Source of the DNA: a virus
DNA length: 42,436 nt
Reading direction: 5' to 3' (one strand)
IMG/VR virus record: IMGVR_UViG_3300045284_000326
Location: 1 to 42,436 of that record
Shown: positions 1 through 32,352 of the stretch, piece by piece
Position numbering within the stretch: position 1 is the stretch's first letter
How the letters are laid out: each line of letters begins with the position of its first letter
Translations under genes and position numbers: made by a program
The notes under the pieces: generated by a model
Told to the model about the DNA's origin: nothing
The model's database searches: none
What the model saw: only the letters and a program-made list of their open reading frames with translations

Positions 1-881
1 CTGAACTCGCCGGTATCGGGATCGTGGTTGGGGTTGAAGTCGCCTACTTCTTGATCTTGGGATTGTTGAAGTCGGCGGGTCCAACGATCCCGTATGTCCT
101 CCCAGACATGTCCAACTTCGCCCCCGGCGGCCCGACTAATTTCGTCTTCGTAGACGCGCCGGGCGTCGTCCCTTTGCTCTCGGTCGGTGGCTTCTCCGTT
201 TTCGAGCTTTGTGCCAATGAACTCTCCCTTGCCCGGCGTCCACGACATCTCGGCGTTGTGCGCCTTGGCCGCATCGCCTACCTTGTCGAGTGTCTCTTGG
301 TCCTGACCGTAGACATACACCACGGTGCCCTCGGATGTGGGGCGCAAGGTGTGGAAGGCAAGGCCGCGCTTTAACAAATCTTCATGCACGGCAACGACAT
401 CGCCCTCGGCGGTGAAGCGTGCGATGAACTCCTCGGCCTGCGTGTCGGGCTGGAAGTAGAGCACCGATTTCTGGTCGGCGATGTAGCCTTCCATGGCCAA
501 GGCGGCGCGCTCGACGGCGGGGTTCTCGCCGGACCACGAGAGCATGATGCTGTTCTCGGCACCATCTGACCACGCGCCCACGACCGGCGCTTGGTTGACC
601 TTCAGCCCAAGCGCCGAATTTATTTCACGGCTGGCCTCGTTGAGCAGCTTCTGACGGGCTGATGAGGTGATGGCGTTGGCCGCCTGCTCGATCTGCAGGT
701 CGTGGATATTCGGGGAGACAAATCCGGTGCTGCCGCCGGATTTACCGGATTTACCGGATTTACTGCTGGAGCCGCCGCCACCGGGCCCGAACTGCCCGGC
801 GTTGTTGGGTTGACCGCGCGGGTGGTCGGCCTCGTTCCACTCGTCTCCTACCAGTCGGATGCCGGTGTAAGGGTTGAAGCG
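1..881 (-). CDS. Partial -1-frame continuation of the portal polyprotein (cargo module), runs off left edge
   Basis: This minus-strand frame is open from the window edge to about position 881, with no stop and no good ATG/GTG start near its beginning. It overlaps the end of the portal gene (stop at 848-850) in the -1 frame, so it is best read as a frameshifted extension. It opens with RFNPYTG, then HPRGQPNNAGQFGPGGGG, nearly identical to a linker inside the portal protein (residues ~1108-1125), then three KSG repeats. A domain of about 200 residues that I do not recognise follows, with helical and alpha/beta-looking segments. The frame ends at the edge with FNPNHDPDTGEF, matching the portal linker around residue 536 (HDPDTGLF), so yet another module probably follows. 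GC-rich third positions support real coding. It could instead be a separate gene with an unusual start, or a remnant after an indel. Confidence 0.7.
736..762. repeat. Three tandem 9-bp units encoding Lys-Ser-Gly repeats
   Basis: The unit ccggattta is repeated three times in direct tandem. In the minus-strand -1 frame it encodes the KSG repeats of a flexible linker just after a GGGGSSS stretch. Tandem units like this are prone to slippage, so the linker length may vary between relatives. Confidence 0.85.
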
Positions 882-3800
882 AAAGGGCGGTGGGAGCCGT
901 GCGTCACCGCATCCTTCTTGGTTGTCTGCTTCTGCTCTTCCTTCGGCACCATTGCGCCGACGCCCGCCTGCGGGATGCCCATCTCGCGTGCGAAGGTGTT
1001 GCTGATCTCCAAGAGCTCAAGGATCGAGGCGTTGATGCGCGCCACCGGCATCTTGATGTCGCCGGACTTGTTGTCGTCGTAGTCCACCGCGACGTTGGCG
1101 GCCCAGCGGTGGTGACCGTCCACGATGTAGTTGTCGTCGCTGACGAAGATGCGCTCCTCACCGATCTTGCCCGCGCGGATCGCGCTCGCCATACCGGCGA
1201 TCTTTGCACCGTTCAGTTCGTTCTGGCTGGCCTTCAGGTGGTCGGCACGCACGTCGGTGTCGTCGATGGTCAGGCCGATCTCTTCGAGGTGATCGCGGAA
1301 CGCCTGCGTGAGATCGACCTCGCCCTTCTTGTTGGCGGGCAGCTTCGAAGCGGGGCTGTTGGGCTTCGGCACACCCTTCAACTGCGGCATCTTCACACGC
1401 GGGATGCCCTTGCTCTCGGCGCAGAACAAGTTGGTGCCCTCGACCGTGACGTTGCACAGATCGAAGGTGCGGTCCTTGCCCTCACCCTTCGACTTGGCCA
1501 TGCGGCTGGCCACCTTGCCCACCTTGTCGATGGCGATGGCGACCTTGTCCTCGGAGCAGAGGTTGACCTTGCGGCCCTCGTAGAGCGCGCGCACGACATC
1601 CGTCACGTCGTCGGTGTGGATGATGCCGTCCTCGTCCTCGACGGCGCGCCCCGAGTAGCCGTGGCCGGGGTGCTTGCCCTCGCCGCTCTCCAGCAGGCTC
1701 TGGTAGGTGTGCTCGCGCTCGCCCGGTGTCTTGCCGATCTTCTTGCGCGTCTGCAGCACCTCGCGGTAGCTGCTCTTGGCGCTCTGCGACGGCTCGCTGC
1801 GCTTCGACTTGGCAGACGATCCACCACCGCCCGGACCCCACTGGCCAGCGTTGTCTGGCTGCCCACGCGGCTGGTCGGGGCTGTAATCGATGCTGTAGCT
1901 CTCGCCAGCCTCGTAATCGACGTGGCCGCTGAGCGGGTCAAGCCGCTGACCCGCCGCATACTCGATGCCGCGCGTGATGTAGGGGTCTTCGGCGTCGAGC
2001 GCGTGCAGCATGTCCACCGACTGATCCCAGTCGGCGAAGGTCATCTTGCCGGGCTTGTCGGGCGGGTCTGTGCCGCCGAGTATCGAGCGCCCACGCGCGG
2101 CATCACCGTGCCGCCTGCGGAGCTCGGCAAGCTGCGCCCGCAGGCTCTCGTTCTCGCTCGCCAGCCGCTCGTTCTCTTGGTTGAGCTTCGCTTGCTCCTC
2201 CTCGGGCACCGCGATGCGGCGCGTCCATGCGGAGGTGTGCGGAGAGTTGTCGCCGCGTGCGTAGGCGAGCGCCTGCTGGGTCTGGTATTTGAACACGCCG
2301 ACGACGGAGGTCTGGCCCTCGGCACCGGAGCGTTGCACGCGGCCGGGCGGATCGGAGCGTGCATCGCCGGGAACGAACACGCCGGGCATGGTGGAGCGCA
2401 GATCGACATCAGCCTTGATGTAACCCTTCTCGTCGCGCTCGATGCTGTCGGGCAGCCACGATGTGTCGGGTGCCTGTCCAAGATACAGCCCGACGCTGTC
2501 GGCGGGCAGCCGCTTGCCGCCCTTGGTGATGATGGCCACCGGCTTGCCATCGGCGTCACGCTGTAGCTCGGCGATCTCGTCGCCCTCGACCACGTTGATG
2601 TTGGTGCGCTGCTTGGCGCGAATGACCTTCAACGGATCGGCACTCATCTTGCCCGTCTCGCCGCCAATGGGGGAGCGCGACAGGATGGTGACCTTCAGCC
2701 CGGCGTTGGAGGCGCTGATCGCGGCCTGCGCCGCGCCATTCGAGCCGCCGACGATGACGACGTGGCCGGGGCGGTTCTGCGCCCGGCCTGCCGCCTTCGC
2801 CTCGTTGAGCAGATCGTTGTGGCCGCCGAAGTGCACGCCAGTGCCCTCCGAGCCCTTGAAGTTGATCACCTTGAACTGCACGCCGGTCGCGATCACCACG
2901 TTGCGGGCAGTGATCGTCTCACCGTTGTCGAGGTGGATGGTCTTCAGGCCGGTAGTCGGATCGTAGGTGAGGTTGCGGACCTTCGACTGCGTGCGTATCT
3001 CGCCGCCGTTGGCGGTGGCGAGGTTGGCGAGGCGTTCGAAGTAGGCCTTGCCACGCGTCCCGTATTTGGTGCCTGCGACGTTCTTGATGCCGCCGCTGGT
3101 GCGTGACTGGCCGCCAATGTCCGAGCCGCCCTCCAGCAGCGTGGCGTCCATGCCCTCGTAGGCGGCATTGACCAGCGCGTTGAGGCCTGCGGGACCGCCG
3201 CCAATGATCACCACGTCGCGGTGCCCGCCCGGCTTGCCGAAGCCTTGCAGGCCACCCGGATCGAGGCGCAGGCGGCGTATCTGCTTCATCAGGTCGCGGT
3301 GCTCGACCATCAGGTTCTTGATGCGCGTGCTGTCCGGCTTCTCCTTGTAGCGGTCGAGCTCGCCCAGCACGCGCCCCATATCGCGTTCCAGCTTGTCGGC
3401 CATGCCTTGGTCTTCAGCGCGGAACACGCCGTGCTCGCCACCGTGCAGGCGGCCGTGCGCCGCCGACATGATCTCGGCACCAAAGCCGGTCGCGCCCTCG
3501 GACTGATACGGATCGCTCGATCCAGACGAGGGGCCGCTGTAGCTGGTGCCACCCTCGCCGCAGAACAGGCCGGTATCCGGGTCATGGCACTCGTTGTAAT
3601 CGCGCGCCACAGAGGCGAGCCATTCGGCGCGGCGCTTGAAGATCGGGGTGCTGCGTGCCTTCTTGAGGCGGCGGCCGACGGCAAGTGGTCTGCTGTCCTT
3701 CTTCTGGAACGGGTTGCCCTTCTTCTGCGGTGCCTTGCCACGCTGGAACGGATTGCCGCCACCATTCGGCTGGCCCGGCTGGCCCGGCTGTCCCGGTTGA

Positions 3801-5194
3801 CCGGGGCCAGCCAGCGCCGCCTGCTTCTCCATCTCGGCCTGCGCTTGCGCATCCTGCTCCTCGGGAGACAGCATGCTCTCCATGTCGAGTTGGTCTTGTT
3901 GCTCCAGCGCCTGCTCAAGGCCGGGGTAGGTGCCGTCCTCGATCAACTGGTTCTGCCGCCCGATGCGCAGCGCCTCGGCATCGACAGCACCGGCCATGAT
4001 GTCCACGTTGAAGGCTTCCGCCTTCTGCTTGGCGACCGCCGCCTTCTCGGTGGCGGGCATCTGCCACAGCGGGTTCCAGATATAATACAGACTAGGATCG
4101 CGGTCGCCCAATGCAGAGCGGATCAATACATCGTCAAGAGCAGCAAGGGCGGGAGACAATACGTTGGTTTGATCGCTGTTAATTCGGTCGTAGTAGTTAC
4201 GGACATCACTCTCTCCAGTAGACTGTAGTCCAGCAGGGGACTGCCCGAGCATACGTGTAGCGGGGATGTCTGCTGCACCGGAGGCGATGAGGAGATACAT
4301 CTGCAGGACATCGGGGAGTTGCGTGAAATTCGCATTGATGCGCTCCCACTCCTCTTCCTTGTCGAGCAGCAGCGTGTTGATCACGCTCTTCACCGAGTTG
4401 GCATACACAAACCTCGCCGTGAGCCGGTTCTGATACTCGGCGGTGGCGATGTTCTGCGACAGGTCAGGGATTTTGATAATGTCGAACTTGCTCTCGGTCA
4501 CCAGCGTGGCGATGGACTGGGTGACGAGGGTGGCCGACTGCACCGCGTCCTGCACATTCTGCAGCACGCTGTCGCCCCAGATTTCTCCCTGCATCACCGG
4601 GTCCGGCATGTTCATGCCCTTCAGCATGATGACGCGGCTCGGGTGTATCTGGAACTCGGCCGCCGTCTGGTTCTGGCCGATGTCCATGTTGCGGGTGAAA
4701 TACTCGGGCTTGCCATACATCGGGTCCATCGGGTCTTTGACCAGCGGACCCGTGCCGAGCGCCCAGCGCGAGACGGCGGCGATGAACTCAAGGCCGCCCT
4801 TCTCGACGCTCTCGTAGTCGAGCGGCGTGTTGTTGCTCGCGCCCTTGACGCCGAGCAGGATGGCTGCGCCGCCGTAGAGGCGCGACATGATCAGGGCGTT
4901 CTTCAGCACCACCTGCACGTCGAGGCGCGTCTCCTCCTCTTCGAGCAGCTCCACCACATTGGTGTCGGCCTGCCACGCACGCCACGCGCGCGTGGCGTCC
5001 TGCGCCGGGATGTCGATCAGCTTGCGAGCGATCCAGTTGGCCCGGTAGGCGCTTTCGAGCTCATACTGCGACAGCGGGGTGAACTGCCAGAACGACGCGC
5101 CGCTGGCCGCCTTGTCGCGGCCCGGCACGCCGAAGCCTGCCATGAGGTTGATCAAGCTGTCCTTGATCGCAGCAACGTCGAACGGTGCGCCCAT
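848..5194 (-). CDS. Portal protein fused to flavoprotein-reductase-like and ParB-like domains
   Basis: This 1448-residue protein is about three times the usual portal length. Residues 1-460 match phage portals of the DUF1073 type (RANWIARKLIDIPAQDATRAW near 51-71). A GQP-repeat segment (464-476) and a linker with HDPDTGLF (537-544) follow. Residues ~658-985 look like the FAD/NAD(P) part of thioredoxin reductase: FAD loop VVIIGGGPAG at 661-670, NAD(P) loop VVIVGGSNG at 812-820 and a PGVFVPGDA segment at 937-945, but no CxxC at the usual place. A coiled coil spans ~998-1028 and a second linker (QPRGQPDNAGQWGPGGGG) ~1108-1125. A ParB/Srx-like domain (~1310-1405) contains VDGHHRWAA at 1358. The N-terminal part should form the packaging and ejection channel; the C-terminal domains may be virion-borne cargo, which is inference. 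Some databases label DUF1073 portals 'anti-CBASS Acb1 family'; I see no basis for that activity here. Confidence 0.85.
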   Translation of the reverse strand: MGAPFDVAAIKDSLINLMAGFGVPGRDKAASGASFWQFTPLSQYELESAYRANWIARKLIDIPAQDATRAWRAWQADTNVVELLEEEETRLDVQVVLKNALIMSRLYGGAAILLGVKGASNNTPLDYESVEKGGLEFIAAVSRWALGTGPLVKDPMDPMYGKPEYFTRNMDIGQNQTAAEFQIHPSRVIMLKGMNMPDPVMQGEIWGDSVLQNVQDAVQSATLVTQSIATLVTESKFDIIKIPDLSQNIATAEYQNRLTARFVYANSVKSVINTLLLDKEEEWERINANFTQLPDVLQMYLLIASGAADIPATRMLGQSPAGLQSTGESDVRNYYDRINSDQTNVLSPALAALDDVLIRSALGDRDPSLYYIWNPLWQMPATEKAAVAKQKAEAFNVDIMAGAVDAEALRIGRQNQLIEDGTYPGLEQALEQQDQLDMESMLSPEEQDAQAQAEMEKQAALAGPGQPGQPGQPGQPNGGGNPFQRGKAPQKKGNPFQKKDSRPLAVGRRLKKARSTPIFKRRAEWLASVARDYNECHDPDTGLFCGEGGTSYSGPSSGSSDPYQSEGATGFGAEIMSAAHGRLHGGEHGVFRAEDQGMADKLERDMGRVLGELDRYKEKPDSTRIKNLMVEHRDLMKQIRRLRLDPGGLQGFGKPGGHRDVVIIGGGPAGLNALVNAAYEGMDATLLEGGSDIGGQSRTSGGIKNVAGTKYGTRGKAYFERLANLATANGGEIRTQSKVRNLTYDPTTGLKTIHLDNGETITARNVVIATGVQFKVINFKGSEGTGVHFGGHNDLLNEAKAAGRAQNRPGHVVIVGGSNGAAQAAISASNAGLKVTILSRSPIGGETGKMSADPLKVIRAKQRTNINVVEGDEIAELQRDADGKPVAIITKGGKRLPADSVGLYLGQAPDTSWLPDSIERDEKGYIKADVDLRSTMPGVFVPGDARSDPPGRVQRSGAEGQTSVVGVFKYQTQQALAYARGDNSPHTSAWTRRIAVPEEEQAKLNQENERLASENESLRAQLAELRRRHGDAARGRSILGGTDPPDKPGKMTFADWDQSVDMLHALDAEDPYITRGIEYAAGQRLDPLSGHVDYEAGESYSIDYSPDQPRGQPDNAGQWGPGGGGSSAKSKRSEPSQSAKSSYREVLQTRKKIGKTPGEREHTYQSLLESGEGKHPGHGYSGRAVEDEDGIIHTDDVTDVVRALYEGRKVNLCSEDKVAIAIDKVGKVASRMAKSKGEGKDRTFDLCNVTVEGTNLFCAESKGIPRVKMPQLKGVPKPNSPASKLPANKKGEVDLTQAFRDHLEEIGLTIDDTDVRADHLKASQNELNGAKIAGMASAIRAGKIGEERIFVSDDNYIVDGHHRWAANVAVDYDDNKSGDIKMPVARINASILELLEISNTFAREMGIPQAGVGAMVPKEEQKQTTKKDAVTHGSHRPFASTLTPASDW
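881..887 (-). other. Candidate -1 ribosomal frameshift site (C CCT TTC)
   Basis: On the minus strand the portal gene reads ..CGC CCT TTC GCT.., which presents C CCT TTC in the X XXY YYZ arrangement of -1 slippery sites. Slipping to CCC TTT places the next codon, CGC, at the point where the -1 frame becomes coding-like (RFNPYTG, then the recurrent linker). Without slippage translation stops 10 codons later at 848-850. I did not identify a clear stimulatory pseudoknot. A true indel or sequencing error at this place would look the same. Confidence 0.5.
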
Positions 5195-5329: not shown

Positions 5330-5432
5330 CGTAGTGCTGCTGTGCCCACATGATGCCGACGACCACGCCGATCACCAAGCCGCCAAACATGGCGAGCACA
5401 GCGAACAGCGTGCACAGCGCGGCGACTGTCAC
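5322..5432 (-). CDS. Tiny membrane ORF 1 downstream of endolysin (candidate holin)
   Basis: This 36-codon frame starts at a GTG that overlaps the endolysin stop as GTGA. It is almost entirely a single glycine/valine-rich membrane segment with a short WAQQHYGV tail. Single-span proteins overlapping an endolysin gene are typical of phage lysis cassettes, so a holin or antiholin role is a fair guess. The tight overlaps on both sides support real coding. There is no family-level motif to confirm it. Confidence 0.45.
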   Translation of the reverse strand: MTVAALCTLFAVLAMFGGLVIGVVVGIMWAQQHYGV

Positions 5433-6121
5433 AGCATTCCCTGCACTTCACGCCGCAGCTTGTCGCCGCACTCCCTCGCGCCCTGCACATTGCTGTCGAA
5501 GGCGAGCCGCGTGTAGTCCCACTTGCCTTCCTGCGCGACGCCACAGTTGGCCTGCACCTCGGCGTGGCTGAGCACCGTGGTGAGCGTGACCGGGATGTTG
5601 TAGAAGGCACAGAGATCGGCGACCACCGCGACCAGCGTCTCCCACTGATCCTCGGTCATCGGGTAGTCGCCAGCGTCGAACGGGCTTTCCTTTGCGCCCG
5701 ACATGCAGCACAGCGACACACCGATGGAGCCGGTGTTGAGGTTTTTCGTGTGCGCCGCGTAGGTGCCGTCGCTGGTGCTGACGTTGTCCTTGATCGAGTA
5801 GGAGCCGCGCACGAGGGTGCCGTCACCCTCGATCAGGATGTGGTAGTGCGGCGTGTCGCCACCGCCCGCCTTGTGCGTGCCTGCCGTCCAGTGGCAGATG
5901 ACGCGCTCCATGTTGCAGTCCGGCATCCACGACGGCGGCACAATGCCGGGGACAGGGGTGCCTTCACCGCCCTCCTCGACCTCGGGCGGCGCAGGCAGCG
6001 GCGCATACTCGTCGAGCATGTCGAAGATCGCATCCTCGGTGAGCGGCCCATACATGCCGTCGCTGGGGCCGGGGTCGAAGCCCAGCGAGCGCAAGCGGTC
6101 CTGTAGCTCATCGGTTCGCAT
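5429..6121 (-). CDS. Endolysin: N-acetylmuramoyl-L-alanine amidase with peptidoglycan-binding domain
   Basis: The protein should cut the amide bond between N-acetylmuramic acid and L-alanine to release progeny. The first ~45 residues resemble a PG_binding_1 repeat (LQDRLRSLGFDPGPSDGMYG). After a proline/glutamate-rich hinge comes an amidase_2 (T7 lysozyme-like) domain. Probable zinc ligands, numbered from the upstream in-frame TTG, are His79 (ICHWTAG), His188 (LSHAEV) and Asp204 (KWDYTRL, replacing the Cys of T7 lysozyme). I chose the ATG at 6121 because a GGAGGG lies about 8 nt upstream; a TTG two codons earlier is less likely. It is the first gene of the lysis cluster and overlaps a tiny membrane ORF at its stop. 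No signal peptide is visible, so a holin is expected. Confidence 0.92.
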   Translation of the reverse strand: MRTDELQDRLRSLGFDPGPSDGMYGPLTEDAIFDMLDEYAPLPAPPEVEEGGEGTPVPGIVPPSWMPDCNMERVICHWTAGTHKAGGGDTPHYHILIEGDGTLVRGSYSIKDNVSTSDGTYAAHTKNLNTGSIGVSLCCMSGAKESPFDAGDYPMTEDQWETLVAVVADLCAFYNIPVTLTTVLSHAEVQANCGVAQEGKWDYTRLAFDSNVQGARECGDKLRREVQGML

Positions 6122-6220
6122 CAACAATCCCTCCGCATTTGTTGGTGGCCTCCACCCGAAGGGGTCCAGTGAACCATCAACCGGCTGGGGGCGATGGGAA
6201 GGAACACCCTCGGGTGAAGC

Positions 6221-7359: not shown

Positions 7360-7611
7360 TCAGTCGTCTTCGTCGTAGCCGTAAAAGGCTATCTCACCCC
7401 AGTCAGGGTCATCGACGTCTCCGCGTTGCCACGGCGGCTCCTTGGTGAGCCGGTAGCCGAACTCGGGGATGAACTCGACGAACCAATTGGCGGGCGCGTG
7501 CGCGTTGGCCACGCCCCGCTGCCCCCACTTCAACTCACAATGCCAACGGAGCTCGTGCGGGTGGATAGCGCCCGCCTGCGCGGTGAACCGCGCATCGTCC
7601 CACTCGGACAC
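7360..7611 (-). CDS. Hypothetical acidic phage protein
   Basis: This 83-residue acidic protein is rich in Trp, Glu and Asp and ends GYDEDD. No domain is recognised. It starts 3 nt downstream of the gene ending at 7615 and so is likely co-transcribed with the terminase. Possible roles include a head-completion or terminase accessory protein, but only position suggests this. Confidence 0.65.
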   Translation of the reverse strand: MSEWDDARFTAQAGAIHPHELRWHCELKWGQRGVANAHAPANWFVEFIPEFGYRLTKEPPWQRGDVDDPDWGEIAFYGYDEDD

Positions 7612-7614
7612 GGC

Positions 7615-7827
7615 TCAATTCTTGAACTTCGGCATACCGGGACGGTCGAGCCCGACATCGGGCAGTGGTTGATCGGGCCTCGGCGTCGGGCGCACCGAGC
7701 GGGCCGCCTTCATGCGCTTCGCCATCTCGCGGATGAACTCGTGCCGGGTCAGGCCCATCGCGTCCCACGGCGTCTGCTTCTTGTCACCCGTCGCGGGCTT
7801 CGCGGCGGTCTTTGCTGCTGCTACCAT
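7615..7827 (-). CDS. Small basic protein next to terminase, unknown
   Basis: The 70-residue product is basic and proline-rich (KTAAKPATGDKKQTPWDAMG, RPTPRPDQPLPD) with one predicted helix around HEFIREMAKRMKAA. Its start overlaps the terminase stop by 7 nt, indicating translational coupling. I do not recognise the family. A small DNA-binding or scaffold-like function is conceivable. Confidence 0.65.
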   Translation of the reverse strand: MVAAAKTAAKPATGDKKQTPWDAMGLTRHEFIREMAKRMKAARSVRPTPRPDQPLPDVGLDRPGMPKFKN

Positions 7828-9335
7828 GGCCGTGCGCCTCCGTTTAGCTGCTGTGCCAAAACATTGTCGGGAACGTCACCCGTCGCCCACCGCATGCTGC
7901 TGTCATAGGTGCTGCCCAGCGTCAGCTTGGTGAACGCGCCTGCGGCGGCGTCCACCACATCGACGTAGGTGCCATTCGGGAACGTCTCGTGTTCGTTCAA
8001 AAAGTCCTTGTTCCACATCGCCGAGAGGATCGACACGTTGCCCGCCTGAACTTGCGCGGCGTAGGGATCGGCGCGGATGTGCTTGGCGTCGGTGACCTTG
8101 TCGGCCTCTGCCTTGTAGCCCGCGAGCATCCGCACGCTGCGCTCGGCGCTCTCCTTGCCGCCTGAGCCCGGCTCCTGCTCAACCACGGTCAAGACGTTGG
8201 GGCCGCTCTCCTGCCGGTCCATCTGCGCCGTCTGCAGGATCATGCGCTCGCGTTCGAGTGCCGACAATTGCTTGCGCCGCACATCGGAGACGATGAAGCC
8301 GCCGTCCGGCAGCTTGCCCATCTTGACGCCCGCCGTGTATGCGCCGCCCATCTCGGTGGCCGCCTTGTCCCAGTAGCGCACCCACTTGATGACGTTCTTC
8401 GGCACCGCGTTCACCACCGCGAACTTCTCGACGGGGAACATGCCGCCGCCAGCGATGATCGGGCTCTGCTGGTAGAGCGACACCCACGAGGCTTGGCTCA
8501 GGCCGCGCCGCCGCTCTTCGAGGAACTCCAGCGACTTGAACTCGGGGAACAGCGCCTCGCCCTTGCGGCGGTGGAGCTCATCCTTGGTGGCAATGGCCGG
8601 GTAGTCGAGCACCTCCGTCTCAGGAAATTTCTGCAGGAAGCGCCCGGCCGGATCGTCGAGGTGCCAGCGGGTCAGCGTCATCAGCAGCGCGGCGTGGTCG
8701 GAGAAGCGGGTGAAGAAATCGTCGGTGAGCCACGCCCACGTGGCGTCGCGCACGGTCGTGGAGTTTGCTTCACGCCTGCCCTTGATCGGATCGTCGATGA
8801 AGCCGAAGTCCAGCCCCTTACCAGTAACCTGTCCGTTCACGGTAGTATTGCGGAAGCTGCCCTTGAACGATCCAGTCCCGCCCATGTATTCCAGCAGGTT
8901 GTTGTTGCGCATGCCTGCAATGGAGCGGCCGAAGCTTGGCAGGCGCGGCCCGAACACCTGCTTGTATTTGTCGCTGTCCATCATGCGCTGCAAGTTGACG
9001 TTGACGCCCTGCCCGAGATCGTCGGAGTAGGACGTGAACAGGCACCTGAGCGAGGGGTTCTTGCCCGCCACCCACGCGATGAAGTCGGTGACGATGGTCG
9101 TCTTGCCGTGCTGCGGCGGTGCCATCAGCACCATCTTCGGCCGCTCACCATTCATAAAGCGCAGGTAGAAGCGCTGCAGGTGGTCGCATATCTCCTTCAA
9201 CCACCAGCCGATCTTCATGTCCTCGCGCATGTGGCAGCGGAACGAGTAGAAGTCTACTCTTGCCTCGGAGCGCGCGCACTCGTTGTAGAGCTCGAAGCTG
9301 CGGCTATCCTTGAGTTGTTCGTATGAAATGGGCAC
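7821..9335 (-). CDS. terL: Terminase large subunit (packaging ATPase-nuclease)
   Basis: This 504-residue protein drives DNA into the procapsid through the portal and cuts the concatemer. Walker A is APPQHGKTT at 72-80, Walker B ends FGFIDD at 177-182, and the RNase H-like nuclease carboxylates are probably Asp323 (YWDKAAT), Glu387 (VVEQEPGSGGK) and Asp458/Asp462 (YVDVVDAAAGAF). Length and motif order match full-length phage TerL. I use the GTG at 9335, which overlaps the GcrA gene; no better start exists before the conserved N-terminus. The portal gene lies about 2.6 kb downstream in the same direction, with lysis and small genes between them, which is an unusual order. Confidence 0.95.
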   Translation of the reverse strand: MPISYEQLKDSRSFELYNECARSEARVDFYSFRCHMREDMKIGWWLKEICDHLQRFYLRFMNGERPKMVLMAPPQHGKTTIVTDFIAWVAGKNPSLRCLFTSYSDDLGQGVNVNLQRMMDSDKYKQVFGPRLPSFGRSIAGMRNNNLLEYMGGTGSFKGSFRNTTVNGQVTGKGLDFGFIDDPIKGRREANSTTVRDATWAWLTDDFFTRFSDHAALLMTLTRWHLDDPAGRFLQKFPETEVLDYPAIATKDELHRRKGEALFPEFKSLEFLEERRRGLSQASWVSLYQQSPIIAGGGMFPVEKFAVVNAVPKNVIKWVRYWDKAATEMGGAYTAGVKMGKLPDGGFIVSDVRRKQLSALERERMILQTAQMDRQESGPNVLTVVEQEPGSGGKESAERSVRMLAGYKAEADKVTDAKHIRADPYAAQVQAGNVSILSAMWNKDFLNEHETFPNGTYVDVVDAAAGAFTKLTLGSTYDSSMRWATGDVPDNVLAQQLNGGARPW

Positions 9336-9780
9336 TCAGACCATGCCTTGGTTTGTTGTAGGCACGCTCGACATGCGCGGCACAATACACGTGCCCCGTT
9401 GCCTGCGGCTCACCACAGAAGAGGAAATCGCGGTCACCCTCTGGCCACTTGCACTGACCGTGCACAAGTTCAAGGATCGAGCGCGTGAACGGCACATTGG
9501 GCTGCTGCGGCTTGGGCGCTGGCGGCGGCTCCATCTTGAACCACCTGTCCGCGCCCTGCTTCTGCTTCCGGCTTGGCTGCGGCTTGGCTTGGTAGGATCG
9601 CTTCGTGCGCGCCACCTGCACGGGCCCGGCGACGGTCTTCAGGCGATACAGCTTGCCGATGACGGCGTTCTTGCTGACGCCAAGCAGCTTGGCGATATCG
9701 ACCGCCGAGTGGCCGTCAGCCTTCAGGCGCTTCAGGCGCTCGATGGCGGCGTCGTCCCATTCAAACGTCCAAGCGCTCAA
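9304..9780 (-). CDS. gcrA: GcrA-family cell-cycle transcription regulator
   Basis: In alphaproteobacteria GcrA binds sigma70-RNA polymerase and activates promoters with CcrM-methylated GANTC sites. Here residues 7-48 match the GcrA helix-turn-helix (WDDAAIERLKRLKADGHSA, GVSKNAVIGKLYRL), and the C-terminal part has CKWPEGD at 110-116 followed by Cys122, Cys133 and His136, resembling the family's C-terminal signature. The 158-residue length is typical. The start is a TTG that overlaps the upstream stop as TTGA. It lies directly before terL. This copy may redirect host polymerase to phage late promoters or mimic the host factor; since the window appears to lack GANTC, it cannot act at such sites within this segment. 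Confidence 0.9.
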   Translation of the reverse strand: MSAWTFEWDDAAIERLKRLKADGHSAVDIAKLLGVSKNAVIGKLYRLKTVAGPVQVARTKRSYQAKPQPSRKQKQGADRWFKMEPPPAPKPQQPNVPFTRSILELVHGQCKWPEGDRDFLFCGEPQATGHVYCAAHVERAYNKPRHGLSAHFIRTTQG

Positions 9781-10148
9781 TGGTAGACCCGGTCGATGAC
9801 GATGCCGCGTGCCGCGAGCTCGGCCTTCACCTCGTCAACCGAGCGGTAGGTCACCTCGGCGGTGTTGGTGTTGGTGACATGCAGCGGGATGACGCGCGCC
9901 AACAGCGCAGCGAAGGTGCGCGGATCGGTGCGGGCGATGTTGGTGAGGTATCCAACCAGCCCGTTGAGGCCCCTGCCGTCCTCGCCCACCTTCTGGGCGG
10001 CGTAGAGGATGGCGTCCTTCAGCACGGTCGTCGTCCGCATCTGGCCGCCCTTCTTGCGGCCACGGCTGTCGTAGCCGCGTTCGTCGCCGAGTGGCTGGTC
10101 AAGGGGATCGAGCTTCTCGCGCTCGACCTTCAGAACGGCTCGCTTCAT
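9777..10148 (-). CDS. Candidate small terminase subunit / terminase-adjacent protein
   Basis: This 123-residue protein is basic at its N-terminus (MKRAVLKVEREK, SRGRKKGGQMRTTT) and then has a helical region (VLKDAILYAAQKVG, LVGYLTNIARTDPRTFAALLARVIPL). I recall this pattern from proteins next to terminases in alphaproteobacterial phages. A TerS or DNA-recognition role fits the location two genes before terL, but there is no defining motif. The start is uncertain: ATG at 10148 has a weak ribosome-binding site, and a GTG at 10220 would add 24 residues of less coding-like sequence. Confidence 0.6.
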   Translation of the reverse strand: MKRAVLKVEREKLDPLDQPLGDERGYDSRGRKKGGQMRTTTVLKDAILYAAQKVGEDGRGLNGLVGYLTNIARTDPRTFAALLARVIPLHVTNTNTAEVTYRSVDEVKAELAARGIVIDRVYH

Positions 10149-10224
10149 TGCTACCGCAGCGGCACAGGGGTGCGCCGTCCTCAATTCGACGTTCTCAAAA
10201 CGATAACACCCCGACAGCACCGTA

Positions 10225-10728
10225 TCAGACAGCGGCCACCAATGTCACGGGGCAATGCACGCGGCTTTCGCGGCCCAAGATCGACAGCAGGATGGCGACG
10301 CGCTGCTGCGCGTCCATGCCCTCGACGATGCCGATCTGGTTCTCGAACGGTCCCTCGGTGATACGCACCGACTGGCCGGGCTGGTAGTAGTCCCTTGGCA
10401 AGCAGACGACGCCCACCTCGTCGGCCAGCACCTGATAATCCTCGATCACCTTCGGCCTCACCTCACAGGCTCTGGAGCCCATGCACAGCACACGTAGCAC
10501 GCCCATCGTGTTCTGCAACCAGTTGGCCGTGCCCTCGATGTGCACAAACAGATAGCCGGGGAATAATCGTAGGGACTTGCCCCAGCGGTCGTAGAAGAAC
10601 GGCGCGAACACGTCGCCGCCCTGCCGCAGGATGTGGCGCGTAGCACGCTGCTCGCACAGCGGCTGCGTCTGGGCGACCACCCAGCGCGGGTGGTCGATCA
10701 CCCGCTCCTCGGCGAGGTCGAACCGCAC
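10225..10728 (-). CDS. NusG/RfaH-like transcription elongation or antitermination factor
   Basis: Residues ~14-100 form a NusG N-terminal-like domain (WVVAQTQPLCEQRA, FAPFFYDRWG, LFPGYLFVHI), and residues ~116-160 a KOW domain (PGQSVRITEGPFENQIGIVE). Such paralogues bind the RNA polymerase clamp and suppress pausing or termination in specific operons. The 167-residue length is close to RfaH/NusG. The gene precedes the packaging genes, so it may help polymerase read through the terminators of the long late operon. It starts with GTG immediately after the preceding stop codon. Whether it is a general or an operon-specific factor cannot be read from the sequence. Confidence 0.88.
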   Translation of the reverse strand: MRFDLAEERVIDHPRWVVAQTQPLCEQRATRHILRQGGDVFAPFFYDRWGKSLRLFPGYLFVHIEGTANWLQNTMGVLRVLCMGSRACEVRPKVIEDYQVLADEVGVVCLPRDYYQPGQSVRITEGPFENQIGIVEGMDAQQRVAILLSILGRESRVHCPVTLVAAV

Positions 10729-10965
10729 CTACCAGCCGTCCTCGGACTTGACTGACCCGCCGTCCCTGAACGTCACGTCCTTGAAGTGCTGGCCGTCCTT
10801 GGTCTTGATGATGTCGCCGATCTCCAGCCCGCCGTAGGGCTCCTCGAGCACCTCGACGCACTCGAAGGTGCCGCGCTCCTCGTCGGCGATCTGGATCGGC
10901 GTGTCGCTGGTCTGCTGCACAGCGCCGTCCTTCAGCGTGATCTTGGCGTAGAGCTTGTCTCCCAT
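10729..10965 (-). CDS. Hypothetical small beta-rich protein
   Basis: This 78-residue acidic protein has a regular strand pattern (KLYAKITLKDGAVQQ, FKDVTFRDGGSVKSEDGW) and may be a small beta-barrel or SH3-like domain. It abuts the NusG-like gene with no gap and is the first gene after the non-coding stretch 10966-11040, so it may lead a transcription unit. No family recognised. The Shine-Dalgarno GGGAGGGA lies just upstream of the ATG. Confidence 0.65.
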   Translation of the reverse strand: MGDKLYAKITLKDGAVQQTSDTPIQIADEERGTFECVEVLEEPYGGLEIGDIIKTKDGQHFKDVTFRDGGSVKSEDGW

Positions 10966-11040
10966 GCGATCCCTCCCGTGGGTTGCATGGGCGAATGGTC
11001 TTATGTTCGTTTTCGGACAAAGGCAACCCCGTAGCTATAC
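10966..11040 (-). promoter_or_regulatory. 75-bp intergenic leader with imperfect palindrome
   Basis: This is the only gap before the NusG-GcrA-TerL segment. It contains GTTCG-TTTT-CGGAC (around 11003-11016), an imperfect inverted repeat, and TTGCCT followed by AT-richer sequence. A promoter or operator for the late segment could lie here, but I cannot assign a convincing -10 element. Confidence 0.3.
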
Positions 11041-11367
11041 CTAGGCGGCAGCGTCGGGGCCGTCGTCGTCGGGATCGATCCGCATCTCGTAAAAGCGCTC
11101 GATGTCCTCGATGTGCCCGAGCGCGCGTGGCGGGGCGTAGCCGAAGGCGCGCTTGAACTCGTTGAACGTGACGCCGTGCACGCCCCGCTCTTCGAGCAGG
11201 CGCTGCGCGATCACCGCCACCTGCAGATAGCGGAGCTCGCGCTGCATCTTCGGCCACGACTTGGTCTTCGGCACCAACCCCTTGGCGGCCAGCTTGCCAT
11301 ACTCGTGTTCGAGGAAAAAGCGGATGCCCTGCGGACTGCGCGGGATCAACCTCGTCACGGTGCCCAT
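11041..11367 (-). CDS. Hypothetical helical protein
   Basis: The 108-residue product is basic and helical (FFLEHEYGKLAAKG, MQRELRYLQVAVIAQRLLEERG) with a DDDGPDAAA tail. The GVTFNEFKRAFGYAPP segment could be a small DNA- or protein-binding helix pair. The start is the ATG at 11367 with AGGAGG 7 nt upstream; an earlier in-frame ATG lacks such a site and overlaps the upstream gene in another frame. Function unknown. Confidence 0.65.
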   Translation of the reverse strand: MGTVTRLIPRSPQGIRFFLEHEYGKLAAKGLVPKTKSWPKMQRELRYLQVAVIAQRLLEERGVHGVTFNEFKRAFGYAPPRALGHIEDIERFYEMRIDPDDDGPDAAA

Positions 11368-11378
11368 AAGGAACCTCC

Positions 11379-11654
11379 TTACTTCACCAGCTTCACCCGC
11401 GCCACGACGCTGCTGTTGAGCGCTTGCGTCGTGTGGCTTGGGTTGCGCCACGCTTGATGCCCAAGCCACCCCGCAAGCCCCCTGATGTCGATGCTGAGAG
11501 TGCATTCAGCGGGGCACGCCTCATCCTTTACCCAGACACTGATGCGCTGGGTGATGACGATGCGTGGGTGGCTTTCAACGTCGTTGTCCCCGAGTAGCTC
11601 GCCACTCTCGGCGTCGCGCACCTTCGGCTCGGGGAAGCTGATGGTCGTGGTCAT
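11379..11654 (-). CDS. Hypothetical phage protein
   Basis: This 91-residue protein has a predicted beta-rich middle (PRIVITQRISVWVKDEA, TLSIDIRGLAGWLGHQAW) and a basic end (VVARVKLVK). I do not recognise a family. It overlaps the upstream gene's stop as ATGA, placing it in the same translationally coupled run of small genes. Confidence 0.65.
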   Translation of the reverse strand: MTTTISFPEPKVRDAESGELLGDNDVESHPRIVITQRISVWVKDEACPAECTLSIDIRGLAGWLGHQAWRNPSHTTQALNSSVVARVKLVK

Positions 11655-11854
11655 GCAACACTCACCTTGGCACGGTAGCGCAACAACAGCACGCGCAGTT
11701 CATCGGAGGCACGGATCGTCTCGCGGTTGAGCAGCCCGCCGTGCAAGCTGTCGGCGTTCTGCACGGCGTGCACCAACTTCTCGGCGGCGCGCACCATCTC
11801 CAGCACGCGGTAGCGCACGAGCAACTCGGCCTCGCGGTCAGGCGTGGAAGGCAT
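11651..11854 (-). CDS. Small helical hypothetical protein
   Basis: This 67-residue protein is all-helical with evenly spaced Leu/Val (REAELLVRYRVLEMVRAAEK, SDELRVLLLRYRAKVSVA). The ATG at 11854 lies inside the end of the preceding gene (17-nt overlap). A longer upstream reading would be an artefact of the overlapping gene. Function unknown. Confidence 0.6.
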   Translation of the reverse strand: MPSTPDREAELLVRYRVLEMVRAAEKLVHAVQNADSLHGGLLNRETIRASDELRVLLLRYRAKVSVA

Positions 11855-12547: not shown

Positions 12548-12799
12548 TCATAGTTTGGCGCGCACCAAGCTGACCGGTGTGCCACGCCTGCGCCAGCGGT
12601 CGTAGTGCACGCGGCACCAACCGTGCGCGAGGTGTGGCTCGCTGCAGTCGGGGATCGAGCAGAGCGGACGCTCGTAAGGCAGCTTGCGCGGGAAGTGGTT
12701 CAGGGTGCCACGCAGCGCCGCGCGCTGGTAGTGGGCGCGGCACAGGCCACGCGCGTTGGATGGATTGTCACAGCCCTCGACGGAGCACTTGGAGCTCAC
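12548..12799 (-). CDS. Duplicated Cys/His zinc-binding motif protein
   Basis: The 83-residue protein contains the same motif twice: CSVEGC..GLCRAHYQRAALRGT and CSIPDC..GWCRVHYDRWRRRGTP, i.e. C-x4-C-x(8-10)-C-x2-H followed by a basic helix. Similar modules occur in phage HNH-associated or nucleic-acid-binding proteins, but no HNH catalytic core is present here. The GTG start at 12799 overlaps the beta-helix gene's stop as GTGA. Likely a small zinc-stabilised nucleic-acid-binding protein; this is inference. Confidence 0.7.
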   Translation of the reverse strand: MSSKCSVEGCDNPSNARGLCRAHYQRAALRGTLNHFPRKLPYERPLCSIPDCSEPHLAHGWCRVHYDRWRRRGTPVSLVRAKL

Positions 12800-13872
12800 G
12801 CGGCCTCTAGCTCCGGGTAGTAGAGATTGTCGAGCAACGCGTAGCCCTCCATGTCGCCCACGAAGTGCGGCGCACCCGTGGTGGAGATGAAGATGCTGTC
12901 GCGTATCGTGTTGTCGCTGGCACCGCCCTTCTCGATCCACATGCCCGCCGCCACGCTGTTGGCGATCAGGTTGCGTTTGAAGCTGGCACCCACCAGCCCG
13001 CTGTCGCGCTTCTGGATGAAAAAGCTGATGCCGTAGTGGCAGCCCAACAGGCTGTTGTCCTCGCAGACGATGCCCTCGATATGCCCGGAGCCAGTCTCGC
13101 GCGCGAGGGTGATGCCGGTGGATTTGAGCTTCTCATTGTAGGTCAGGTATTTCTCATTGCCGGTGCAGTAGCAGAGATTTTTCTTGATCGTCGCGCCGTC
13201 CACCGGGCTGTCGATGTAGATGTTGATCTTGTAGTTGTCGAAGGAGACGTTCTCCAGCGCCGAGCCGCCGACGTGGCCTTTCATTATGCCAAGGCCCTCG
13301 CCCTTGTTATTGAAGATGTAGTTGCGGCGCGCAATCCCGCCCTTGCCTTTGCTGAGAGAGATGCCCTGCCCGTAGCCCGGTTCACCGGTTAAGTTGTGGT
13401 TGGTGTTGCGGTGGACCGTGCAGCCCTCGATCAGCGTGCCGACATTGCTGTCAACGGTCGGCCCCTCGTTGATGATGCCCGTCTCCCAACAATCGTGCAC
13501 ATCGCATTCCAGCACCTCGACGTATTTCGCCGCGTAGATGGCGATGCCTTGGCGGGCGGATCGGGCAACCTCGATGCCCTTGAACGTGACGTAGTTGCCG
13601 TCGAGCATGATGAGCGGCGTGGCACCACCGGAGCCGCCACCACCATCGATCACCACTTGCGCACCGGGTGCTGGGCACACCGTGATGCGCTCGCCCTCAT
13701 TACCGGCGCGCGTGATCGTCTGCTGTGTCACGTGCTGGTGCACGCCGCTGGTGTAGAGGATCGAGCCACCGGCTCGCACCAAGTCGGAAGCGCGATTGAG
13801 CGTGTGCACAGGATGCAATTCGTTGCCGGAAGCGATGTCCTCGCCATCCGGGGAGACATAGACGTCACTCAT
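12796..13872 (-). CDS. Right-handed parallel beta-helix protein (tailspike/polysaccharide-lyase-like)
   Basis: This 358-residue protein has the repeating turns of a pectate-lyase-like beta-helix: an N-terminal YVSPDGEDIASGN..HPVHTLNRASDLV segment typical of DUF1565-like helices, then repeats such as NYVTFKGIEVARSARQGIAI, GGIARRNYIFNNKGEGLGI and VGASFKRNLIANSVAAGMWI. In phages such folds make tailspike depolymerases or polysaccharide-binding fibres. No head-binding or trimerisation domain is evident, so it may act alone or attach to another tail protein. It sits among small unknown genes, not in a tail module. Catalytic residues cannot be assigned by eye. Confidence 0.8.
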   Translation of the reverse strand: MSDVYVSPDGEDIASGNELHPVHTLNRASDLVRAGGSILYTSGVHQHVTQQTITRAGNEGERITVCPAPGAQVVIDGGGGSGGATPLIMLDGNYVTFKGIEVARSARQGIAIYAAKYVEVLECDVHDCWETGIINEGPTVDSNVGTLIEGCTVHRNTNHNLTGEPGYGQGISLSKGKGGIARRNYIFNNKGEGLGIMKGHVGGSALENVSFDNYKINIYIDSPVDGATIKKNLCYCTGNEKYLTYNEKLKSTGITLARETGSGHIEGIVCEDNSLLGCHYGISFFIQKRDSGLVGASFKRNLIANSVAAGMWIEKGGASDNTIRDSIFISTTGAPHFVGDMEGYALLDNLYYPELEAA

Positions 13873-30563: not shown

Positions 30564-32261
30564 TCACTCGATGCCCAGCAGCTTGGGCACGGTCGTTCCC
30601 CTCTTGCGGGCTGCTTCGTGCAAGAGGTCAGCAGCATTGTGCCGCTCACCCTCGTTGGAGTTGCTGAGGTGAGCGACCATCTTGTGGTAACGCCCGTTGA
30701 CGCTGGTGCGCGTTGCACGCACCACATCATCCTCGCCCTCCCAATTACTGAACCCCTGCTTGCGGCACTCCTCCATCACCTCCAGCATCGCGTCGATGCA
30801 CTGCCGGAAGGTGATGTGCTGTGCCGGGTTCATCTTGGCTTCCTCGGCAAGCCGCACCAGCCCGAAGAACTGCGACCGGGCTGAGCGAATGCCGCTCCAG
30901 AACATCTCCAGCTTCTGCTCTGCCTGCCGATACTTGTCGGCGCGCTGCGCTTCCTTCTCCTGCGCGCGTGTGATGCCTGCCTTCTCCTTCTGCATGGCGA
31001 CGGCCAGCGTCAGGACGAACTCCCGCATGAAGCCGGGGAAGCGGGTGGGATCGTCGCGGCGGTGCTTGAAGCGGTCTTCCGGCTCCTGCTTCGCCGCCTT
31101 GACCAGCCGCTTGGCGAGCTCTGCCTGCTCGTCGCGCCCGACGTAGGGTGCGACACCGATGCCGGTCACCAGTTCGCGGAACAGGGTGACGTAGTTGGCG
31201 TCCTTGAGCACAGCGGTGACGCCCTCGAAGTCGAACGCCTTGCGGTCTTCGCGCAGCTTGCGCTCCTCCTCCTTGGAAGCGGCCTTCGCCTTGTCGGCCG
31301 CCTCCTTCTCGGCCTTCGCCTTGGCGGCGCGCTCGGCGCGCTCCTTGGCTTCGGCATCGGCCCGCTTGCGGTGCTCGGCATCAGCCTTGGCGCGCTCCTT
31401 GGCGCGCTCCTCGTCGGCCTTGCGCTTCGCCTCGGCGCGCCGCTCGCGATCAGCCTCGCGCGCCGCCTCCTCGCGCAGCCGCTGCTTCTGCTTCGCCTCT
31501 TTCTCGGCGGCGATCTCGGCGTCACGCTTCGCCTTGGCGGCACGCGCCGCCTCGCGTTCCTTCTCGCGCTTCTCGGCTGCCACAGTGCGCTCGAACTCGG
31601 CGCGCACCGCAGCTTCGGCCGCGCGCCGCTTCTCGGCCTCTGCCTCGGCAGCCGCCTTGCGCTCGGCCGCCTCGATGGCGGCGAGCTCAGCCTGCACCTC
31701 ACCGATCAGCCGGTCGTAGATGCCGGATGACTTGAGGTTGATGATCTGGTCGCGGATGGTGCCGTTGTTGATGCCGGGGATGTCGCCCAAGAACCCCAAG
31801 ATGACCTTCTCACCGACACCGTTGTCGAGCAGGTTCTTGCTCAGGGTGGCCTGCTGCGCCGCCGAGAAGTCACCACCAATCAGCGACCAATTTTCGGTGA
31901 GGATGGCGCGTGCGATATACTTGATGGCCGACGCCACCGATCCGGCGACGGCCGCGCCATGGTCGCCACGGTGCGTGGCATTCTCGGTGGCGTAGATGCG
32001 GATCGCGTCGTGATCGGTCATCTTGCCCTTCGGCGCGACGTAGATTTCTGCCGTCACCTTGCCTGCGGCGATGGCGGCCTTGATACGGTGCCAGCCAGCG
32101 GCAACTTCGATGCCGTCGTCGGTCTGGCGGCTGACGACGCCGCCCCAGAAATCGTTGGTCTTGATGGACTTGGTGAGGGTGGCGACTTGCGCTTCATCGA
32201 CGGGATCGACGGCGAAGTCGCGAAATTGATTGGGCTTCAACTCTTTCAACTTGACTTGCAT
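30564..32261 (-). CDS. ParB-like N-terminal domain plus long charged helix protein
   Basis: Residues 3-~95 look like a ParB/Srx nucleotide-hydrolase fold (VKLKELKPNQFRDF, VAAGWHRIKAAIAAG), as used by ParB CTPases and some nucleases. Residues ~190-350 are an exceptionally charged, Ala/Lys/Glu/Arg-rich helix that probably forms a long coiled coil or single alpha helix. The C-terminal ~200 residues are helical and unrecognised. Length (565) far exceeds canonical ParB. The start is the second ATG of the GGAGATGACC cassette. With no ParA gene in view it is probably not a plasmid-type partition system; a DNA-binding or host-takeover role is possible. Confidence 0.75.
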   Translation of the reverse strand: MQVKLKELKPNQFRDFAVDPVDEAQVATLTKSIKTNDFWGGVVSRQTDDGIEVAAGWHRIKAAIAAGKVTAEIYVAPKGKMTDHDAIRIYATENATHRGDHGAAVAGSVASAIKYIARAILTENWSLIGGDFSAAQQATLSKNLLDNGVGEKVILGFLGDIPGINNGTIRDQIINLKSSGIYDRLIGEVQAELAAIEAAERKAAAEAEAEKRRAAEAAVRAEFERTVAAEKREKEREAARAAKAKRDAEIAAEKEAKQKQRLREEAAREADRERRAEAKRKADEERAKERAKADAEHRKRADAEAKERAERAAKAKAEKEAADKAKAASKEEERKLREDRKAFDFEGVTAVLKDANYVTLFRELVTGIGVAPYVGRDEQAELAKRLVKAAKQEPEDRFKHRRDDPTRFPGFMREFVLTLAVAMQKEKAGITRAQEKEAQRADKYRQAEQKLEMFWSGIRSARSQFFGLVRLAEEAKMNPAQHITFRQCIDAMLEVMEECRKQGFSNWEGEDDVVRATRTSVNGRYHKMVAHLSNSNEGERHNAADLLHEAARKRGTTVPKLLGIE

Positions 32262-32352
32262 GGTCATCTCCTTGCCAGACGCATTGAGGTCCGGCTGCCT
32301 GCTTAGGTGTGGCTATATTGGCTGGGCGGCAAGCCCACTTACTCAACTTATT

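Follow-up and report, generated by a model that had tools for sequence, protein, structure and literature searches.

A phage portal protein continuous with a thioredoxin reductase-fold flavoenzyme and a ParB/Srx-fold domain, and relatives of the flavoenzyme linked to head genes of other phages

Introduction

Does a redox enzyme form part of a phage portal protein, the ring by which DNA passes into and out of the capsid, and if so, what would it do there? The question was raised by an IMG/VR virus record of 42,436 bases, classed linear (IMGVR_UViG_3300045284_000326), the whole stretch of which is called the window here. An open reading frame (ORF) at 848-5194 on its minus strand had been read in an initial annotation as a DUF1073-type portal protein continuous with a thioredoxin reductase-like domain, a coiled coil and a ParB/Srx-like domain. 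The ORF is real. It starts with ATG, encodes 1448 amino acids (P0001) without an internal stop, and stays open with phage codon usage along its whole length. The reductase proved to belong to a family whose members occur on portals and other products of head genes in phages unrelated to one another. This points to a class of virion-carried enzyme that had gone unrecognised.

Results

Portal and reductase in one reading frame

The N-terminal part of P0001 matched PF06381 at residues 44-396 over profile positions 1-356 of 357 (E 2e-102), as a full-length portal, and PHROG 146 at residues 9-454 (E 2e-118); the TIGR01555 score exceeded the cut-off of that model. The solved relative was the portal of phage Pam3 (8hds, E 3e-95), whose structure has 12 chains. 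From solved relatives such as this one, a dodecamer at the packaging vertex would be expected for the window portal. The domains of P0001 follow in the order portal, linker, helical hairpin with Pyr_redox_2 flavoenzyme, coiled coil, second linker and ParB/Srx-fold domain (Table 1). The MuF domain (PF04233) gave no match in the Pfam search of P0001.

The FAD/NAD(P)-binding domain proposed for the portal frame was confirmed by a PF07992 (Pyr_redox_2) match at residues 660-960 (E 3e-34) and by its fold. In the AlphaFold model (predicted local distance difference test, pLDDT, 83), the best Foldseek matches were thioredoxin reductases and AhpF, with E down to 3e-27 (PDB). The domain has the fold of two dinucleotide-binding domains known from TrxB and keeps the motifs GGGPAG, GGSNGAAQAA and GDAR. 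CxxC was absent in the alignment and the whole domain contains no cysteine; the cysteines of P0001 are at 536, 545, 1213, 1247 and 1258 only, with none within 546-1212. The TIGR01292 score was 102.9 bits against a cut-off of 343, and the lack of CxxC ruled out thioredoxin reductase function. The nearest cellular relatives found, annotated as 'FAD-dependent oxidoreductase' and 'cyclic nucleotide-binding domain-containing thioredoxin-disulfide reductase' on bacterial plasmid records, have no CxxC either. Because CxxC is missing from both, we concluded that the window reductase shares the fold of thioredoxin reductase, as first proposed, and not its disulfide mechanism. The PHROG label of phrog_6397, 'ribonucleotide reductase large subunit', appears to be a mislabel, since Pfam and the fold of the matching clade domains identify a flavoenzyme.

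A two-helix hairpin, which the initial annotation had missed, lies directly before the reductase. It was aligned in all six rows of the A6 alignment, and its helices (35-57 and 65-86 of the model) had pLDDT values mostly of 73-92.

Recurrence of the reductase in other contexts

Relatives of the reductase were searched with alignment-based scans (A2, A3, A6) of 2.9 million viral contigs and with one bacterial-genome scan. Alignment queries were needed, as a single-sequence scan of the viral contigs gave no relatives. After near-duplicates were merged, searching with the reductase alone yielded 10 distinct contexts in addition to the window.

Fusion to a portal was repeated in several of them. 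L244, from another metagenome, has a PF06381 portal, linker and reductase in the order of the window, and L128 has a portal with a weak PF06381 match. In L129/L130 the portal is of PF06074 and is accompanied by MuF (PF04233); in L238, L239, L241 and L243 a PF06074 portal is accompanied by Zeta_toxin. L242 is a MuF fusion with PF04233 below the cut-off. Two contexts are polyvalent proteins, one with Acb1 (L211) and the other with a ParB-like domain, the reductase and an ADP-ribosyltransferase (ADPrib_exo_Tox; L240). The reductase is a separate gene beside a PF04860 portal gene in L212 and beside a PF06381 portal with ART in L237. The last context is a 12-kb contig of an Actinomycetota metagenome-assembled genome (L213), in which the next ORF holds a ParB-like domain. 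The effector-like modules found in the same chains as the reductase were Acb1, ADPrib_exo_Tox and Zeta_toxin. A chance fusion is excluded, because the reductase recurs in 10 other contexts and the succession of portal, linker and reductase recurs in L244; these independent contigs also argue against an assembly artefact.

In a maximum-likelihood tree, 13 head-linked rows fell on one side of a branch with support of 100/99, and 19 other sequences fell on the opposite side; the head-linked members thus form a single clade, apart from the cellular enzymes. The clade profile gave 347-606 bits for head-linked members versus at most 265 for the others. FAD and NAD(P) motifs are conserved across the clade, and GGSNGAAQAA is present in most members. 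The portal-fused state requires at least five changes on the tree, in which several inner forks are weak; because of these changes, repeated transfer of the reductase module from one carrier to another is probable.

Rhizobium phage RHph_I72 has, between its portal and MuF genes, a gene with the annotation 'FAD dependent oxidoreductase' (L003:7097-9682). It was considered as a precedent and rejected: tblastn with the window reductase gave no match, and by eye it seems to belong to another family. It is possibly a second type of head-linked flavoenzyme.

Exchange of cargo between related portals

DUF1073-type portals were fetched by portal sequence for comparison. Many have long C-terminal tails with varying cargo: Acb1 (L014, L016), ART (L017), the module that we call VSPN (L012, L018, L031) or a ParB-like domain (L019, L026). 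A close comparison was offered by L010, which is collinear with the window from ~14.5 kb to 3743, with long matches at 79-93% DNA identity. Its portal (L010:10001-12373) is 85% identical to the window portal, and the protein similarity ends at about residue 516. The cargo that follows in L010 resembles, by eye, a RelA/SpoT-like domain (DVLRATVAFDD...VKDRF...GYRDLMLN...ELQFNTHALLEYK); a Pfam search of this C-terminal domain gave no match. The linker directly behind the L010 portal is 78% identical in DNA to window positions 845-763, that is, to linker 3 of the window. Since the reductase-ParB block of ~2.7 kb thus separates the portal tail from a linker contiguous with it in L010, cargo has been gained or lost at the portal tail.

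Linkers

The motif of linker 1 recurs as NECHDPETGKFCGEGG in the L009 portal, and variants of the linker 2 motif occur in many other phage head proteins. Motifs preceding cargo included HPRGQPxNAGQFGPGGGG, NECHDPxTGxFCGEGG, HPRDxxGKFxxGGG, TPGGHEHDQxSH and GGxGSGxxGHxGRPG, found in portal fusions and also near the N-terminus of separate proteins. A search of isolated phages with a linker peptide, a partly arbitrary query of low complexity, returned nothing. The linkers may be flexible spacers, recombination anchors, packaging signals or cleavage sites.

A short, similar N-terminal domain followed by a Gly-rich linker and an effector-like domain was observed in separate putative cargo proteins (MRPRISMYGREGVVKYLDD...KVFFDDGG and MIERHTIEGRRAVVQYL...VLFDDGE), in L094 (a 652-aa ORF) and at 7530-9236, 9137-11779 and 11895-13034 of L212. 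This domain could be a head-targeting tag.

The ParB/Srx-fold domain

The proposed ParB/Srx-like domain was found, and it is larger than the ~1310-1405 first given. phrog_2859 matched residues 1240-1434 (E 2e-20), and the profile built here places the domain at ~1173-1410; a Pfam search of the region gave no match. For its model (pLDDT 80), the top 24 Foldseek matches were all ParB/Noc, sulfiredoxin or Atu1540 chains, with probability up to 1.00 and modest E of 0.006-0.6. In the A4 alignment it has the motif DGHHRW (DGHH[R/H/A/T]W in the family) and two invariant cysteines, 1247 and 1258. The catalytic cysteine of sulfiredoxin sits in a GCHR motif; sulfiredoxin function was ruled out, as the DGHH[R/H/A/T]W motif lacks this cysteine. 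Electron transfer from the reductase to the two invariant cysteines was also considered and dropped, because they are equally invariant in ParB-like domains that have no reductase.

Six of the 11 reductase contexts (window, L129, L211, L212, L213 and L240) had a ParB-like domain of the A4 family, either on the reductase chain itself or no more than a few kb away, but such a domain was present in 2 of 80 portal loci. We regard this co-occurrence as a lead and not a test, the two sets being sampled differently and the rows sharing descent. In L238 (461-6664), and also in L239, L241 and L243, the segment directly before the reductase resembles a ParB-type domain by eye (RVLSGNTRMDIGF); it gave no A4 profile match.

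A third module in another frame

The initial annotation covered 848-5194, and a third cargo module escaped it. Near 880, coding statistics cease to favour the ORF frame and favour the -1 frame, which stays open between 1016 and the contig edge (position 3) and encodes the third module from ~880. This module, VSPN, matched a profile from relatives, among them the portal-fused L012, L018 and L031 as well as L211, with E 9.5e-91; a Pfam search gave no match. An independent gene at 3-845 with a normal start was ruled out, as there is no ATG, GTG or TTG before 581, which itself lies inside the VSPN domain. L211 has the reductase, ParB-like domain and VSPN in the same order, in a single frame. Because -1-frame coding with a third cargo module runs to the contig edge, the ORF must fall short of the full product, or of the full pair of genes. 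The terminal linker is probably followed by a fourth module.

The ORF has one in-phase X_XXY_YYZ heptamer in 1448 codon positions, and it lies at the switch of frame; at that rate, ~0.04 would be expected by chance in the 56-codon overlap. No stimulatory RNA structure above shuffles was found downstream of it (z +0.65), and no relatives with the same frame junction were found. The change of frame may stem from programmed -1 frameshifting, from an indel error or from a scar left by recombination.

Table 1. Features of the portal gene and its continuation in the window
Feature	Position	Strand	Basis or remark
Portal domain, residues 1-460 (PF06381/DUF1073 type)	3815..5194	-	PF06381, PHROG 146, 8hds
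Linker 1, residues 532-549 (DYNECHDPDTGLFCGEGG), after Pro/Gln-rich portal tail	3548..3601	-	Shared motif in L009
Two-helix hairpin, residues ~593-644	3263..3418	-	Specific to head-linked reductase clade
Flavin/NAD(P)-dependent reductase domain, residues 658-975	2270..3223	-	PF07992, alignments, fold, cysteine list
Coiled coil in the portal frame, as first annotated, residues ~992-1032	2099..2221	-	Leucine heptads in translation; weak HALZ/DivIC matches
Linker 2, residues 1105-1125 (SPDQPRGQPDNAGQWGPGGGG)	1820..1882	-	71% identical to linker 3 of the window
ParB/Srx-fold domain, residues ~1173-1410	965..1678	-	phrog_2859, A4 alignment, model, Foldseek
Slippery heptamer CCCTTTC	881..887	-	Only in-phase X_XXY_YYZ of the ORF, where the coding frame becomes -1
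Linker 3 (ADHPRGQPNNAGQFGPGGGG), -1 frame	738..830	-	No in-frame ATG/GTG/TTG upstream
Third cargo module VSPN (VSPN...GAWsDGAENS), -1 frame	81..728	-	Profile from relatives
Beginning of another linker (FNPNHDPDTGEF), truncated at the contig end	3..37	-	-1 frame translation

Gene neighbourhood

The window comes from a tailed phage, with the portal gene at a broken contig end. The large terminase gene (7821-9335, minus strand) is upstream of the portal gene on the same strand, the head-module placement of a PF06381 portal, and an endolysin gene on that strand (5429-6127) and small ORFs lie between them. Other genes of the window encode a primase, SbcCD-like protein, helicase, DnaB-like protein, DNA polymerase, SSB and UvsX-like protein. 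P0001 thus unites domains that differ in activity (portal, flavoenzyme and ParB-like) within a single chain and is encoded among portal-terminase late genes, as polyvalent and portal-effector fusions are.

Three other genes, all on the minus strand, were also noted. A NusG/KOW-type transcription antiterminator (10225-10728; PF02357, phrog_6386) is encoded just 5' of the terminase genes. Upstream of the packaging genes, a right-handed beta-helix protein (12796-13872; PF13229), whose DNA is 93% identical to L010, is possibly a depolymerase or part of a tail spike. The N-terminus of a 567-aa ORF at 30564-32267 resembles a ParB-type domain (VKLKELKPNQFRDF...AAGWHRIKAA) and has no Pfam or PHROG match.

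Discussion

We lean, by a modest degree, towards the view that the gene encodes a tailed-phage portal with C-terminal cargo modules, including an NAD(P)H flavoenzyme, which is delivered with the DNA as an effector. The portal N-terminus would build the ring, and the C-terminal modules would be separated from it and from each other by stereotyped Gly-rich linkers. The cargo, which includes a ParB/Srx-fold domain and a flavoenzyme that has no redox disulfide, would sit inside the capsid and be delivered with the DNA, perhaps once freed at a linker. Inside the host, the flavoenzyme might pass electrons from NAD(P)H to some acceptor, for host takeover or counter-defence. The single reading frame, the identities of the domains, the recurrence in 10 other contexts and the difference in cargo between close relatives are direct observations, whereas location and packaging in the capsid, release, injection, catalysis, acceptor, substrate and purpose of the cargo are all inferred. 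The C-terminus of a portal is expected to point into the capsid; for this reason, cargo inside the head is likelier than cargo acting at the capsid-membrane interface, which had been suggested at first.

Several observations weigh against delivery of an active enzyme. Portals normally stay at the vertex, so that the cargo must either be cleaved off to be delivered or act within the head alone; as the contig breaks off at the portal gene, no protease could be assigned. The ENxPGFP loop, close to the flavin, has been lost from the window copy, which is the most divergent of the clade, with the longest branch (1.9). This copy may be altered or decaying, a caveat on its predicted activity. In isolated phages, tblastn with the reductase gave weak matches only, in unannotated contig records.

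A narrower proposal is that the reductase acts, with the ParB/Srx domain that often accompanies it, to neutralise a host defence based on redox or nucleotide signalling, as Acb1 is expected to do against CBASS. The cargo occupies the position of Acb1 in the related portals L014 and L016, near-identical phages differ in cargo as an arms race would predict, and ParB-like domains accompany 6 of 11 reductase contexts against 2 of 80 portal loci. But those counts come from differently sampled sets that share some descent, each of the two domains may be no more than a common module of polyvalent proteins, and no defence system with a matching substrate was identified. We consider this proposal unlikely in so specific a form.

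The reductase might instead be a structural or assembly module retained in the virion, an FAD/NAD(P)-binding scaffold or redox sensor for assembly, DNA retention or timing of ejection. Such a role would agree with a carrier that remains at the vertex, with the conserved hairpin as a possible adaptor, and with the weakened flavin loop of the window copy. The module, however, also occurs in proteins that are not portal-fused (L212, L237, L240, L211), beside enzymatic effector domains, and the near-identical L010 portal does without it, which means that it is dispensable for portal function. A structural role is accordingly rather improbable to us.

That the reductase-ParB segment is a chimeric assembly, or a recent and decaying out-of-frame insertion, would explain why homology to L010 ends abruptly at the portal tail, why the third module is out of frame behind the only one of 49 counted linkers without an upstream start codon, and why the window copy is on a long branch, but it is very improbable given that L244 repeats the PF06381 portal, linker and reductase, that L129, L128 and L238 repeat the portal-reductase fusion, that the ORF is uninterrupted and shows phage codon usage from end to end, and that the cargo order matches L211.

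Returning to the portal as a carrier of delivered cargo, we tentatively put forward a broader idea, possible but less than an even prospect: that PF06381 and PF06074 portals, together with head proteins beside them, make up a modular platform for cargo. Each cargo would be marked by a stereotyped Gly-rich linker (variants of HPRGQPxNAGQFGPGGGG), which might also serve to release or package it, and the CxxC-less flavoenzyme clade would be one widespread cargo. If true, this clade would be the first class of redox effectors described as borne by virions, and its members would often have a ParB/Srx-fold partner. The substrates of portal- and MuF-fused effectors listed so far are nucleotides, nucleic acids, proteins or NAD+; with a flavoenzyme cargo of monophyletic origin on two Pfam portal families and MuF, the early-infection toolkit would extend to redox chemistry. 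The near-identical pair of the window and L010, with different cargo at one portal position, and the recurring linkers are concrete material for tests of the exchange, packaging and delivery of head cargo.

Comparison with known systems

Portal and MuF fusions to effectors (2H, PBECR, pyrophosphatase, Nudix and ART) have been described and are predicted to be packaged and injected (PMC5512222, PMC9503650). The initial annotation knew of no portal with the architecture of P0001; this holds for the flavoenzyme cargo and not for effector-fused portals as such. Titles and abstracts of the open literature, a scope that leaves out subscription papers and preprints, described no flavoenzyme portal fusion. 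In PMC5512222 the words FAD, flavin and oxidoreductase are absent and 'reductase' occurs once, and 'reductase' is absent from PMC5576092.

MuF and polyvalent proteins are the nearest precedent, as had been suggested. Polyvalent proteins (Iyer et al. 2017, PMC5512222; PMC9503650) likewise bring together, in a single chain encoded in the terminase-portal block, a number of unrelated domains that are for the most part enzymatic, and ParB/Srx domains are listed among them. PF06381 portals with Acb1, a 2H phosphoesterase (L014, L016), share the portal family and the C-terminal place of the cargo; they carry the phosphoesterase, whereas the window portal carries the reductase, ParB-like domain and VSPN. 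The MuF polymorphic toxins (Jamet et al. 2017, PMC5576092) resemble the window protein as head proteins with exchangeable C-terminal effectors, but they have a MuF domain, which the window protein lacks and its relatives L129 and L242 have. With low-Mr thioredoxin reductase and CxxC-less cellular relatives, the reductase shares the fold and FAD/NAD(P) motifs at 30-35% identity, while the head-linked clade differs from these in its own N-terminal hairpin, GGSNGAAQAA in most members and a separate branch. The portal-effector fusion itself was already known; what is new is the flavoenzyme cargo type, its recurrence and its module structure.

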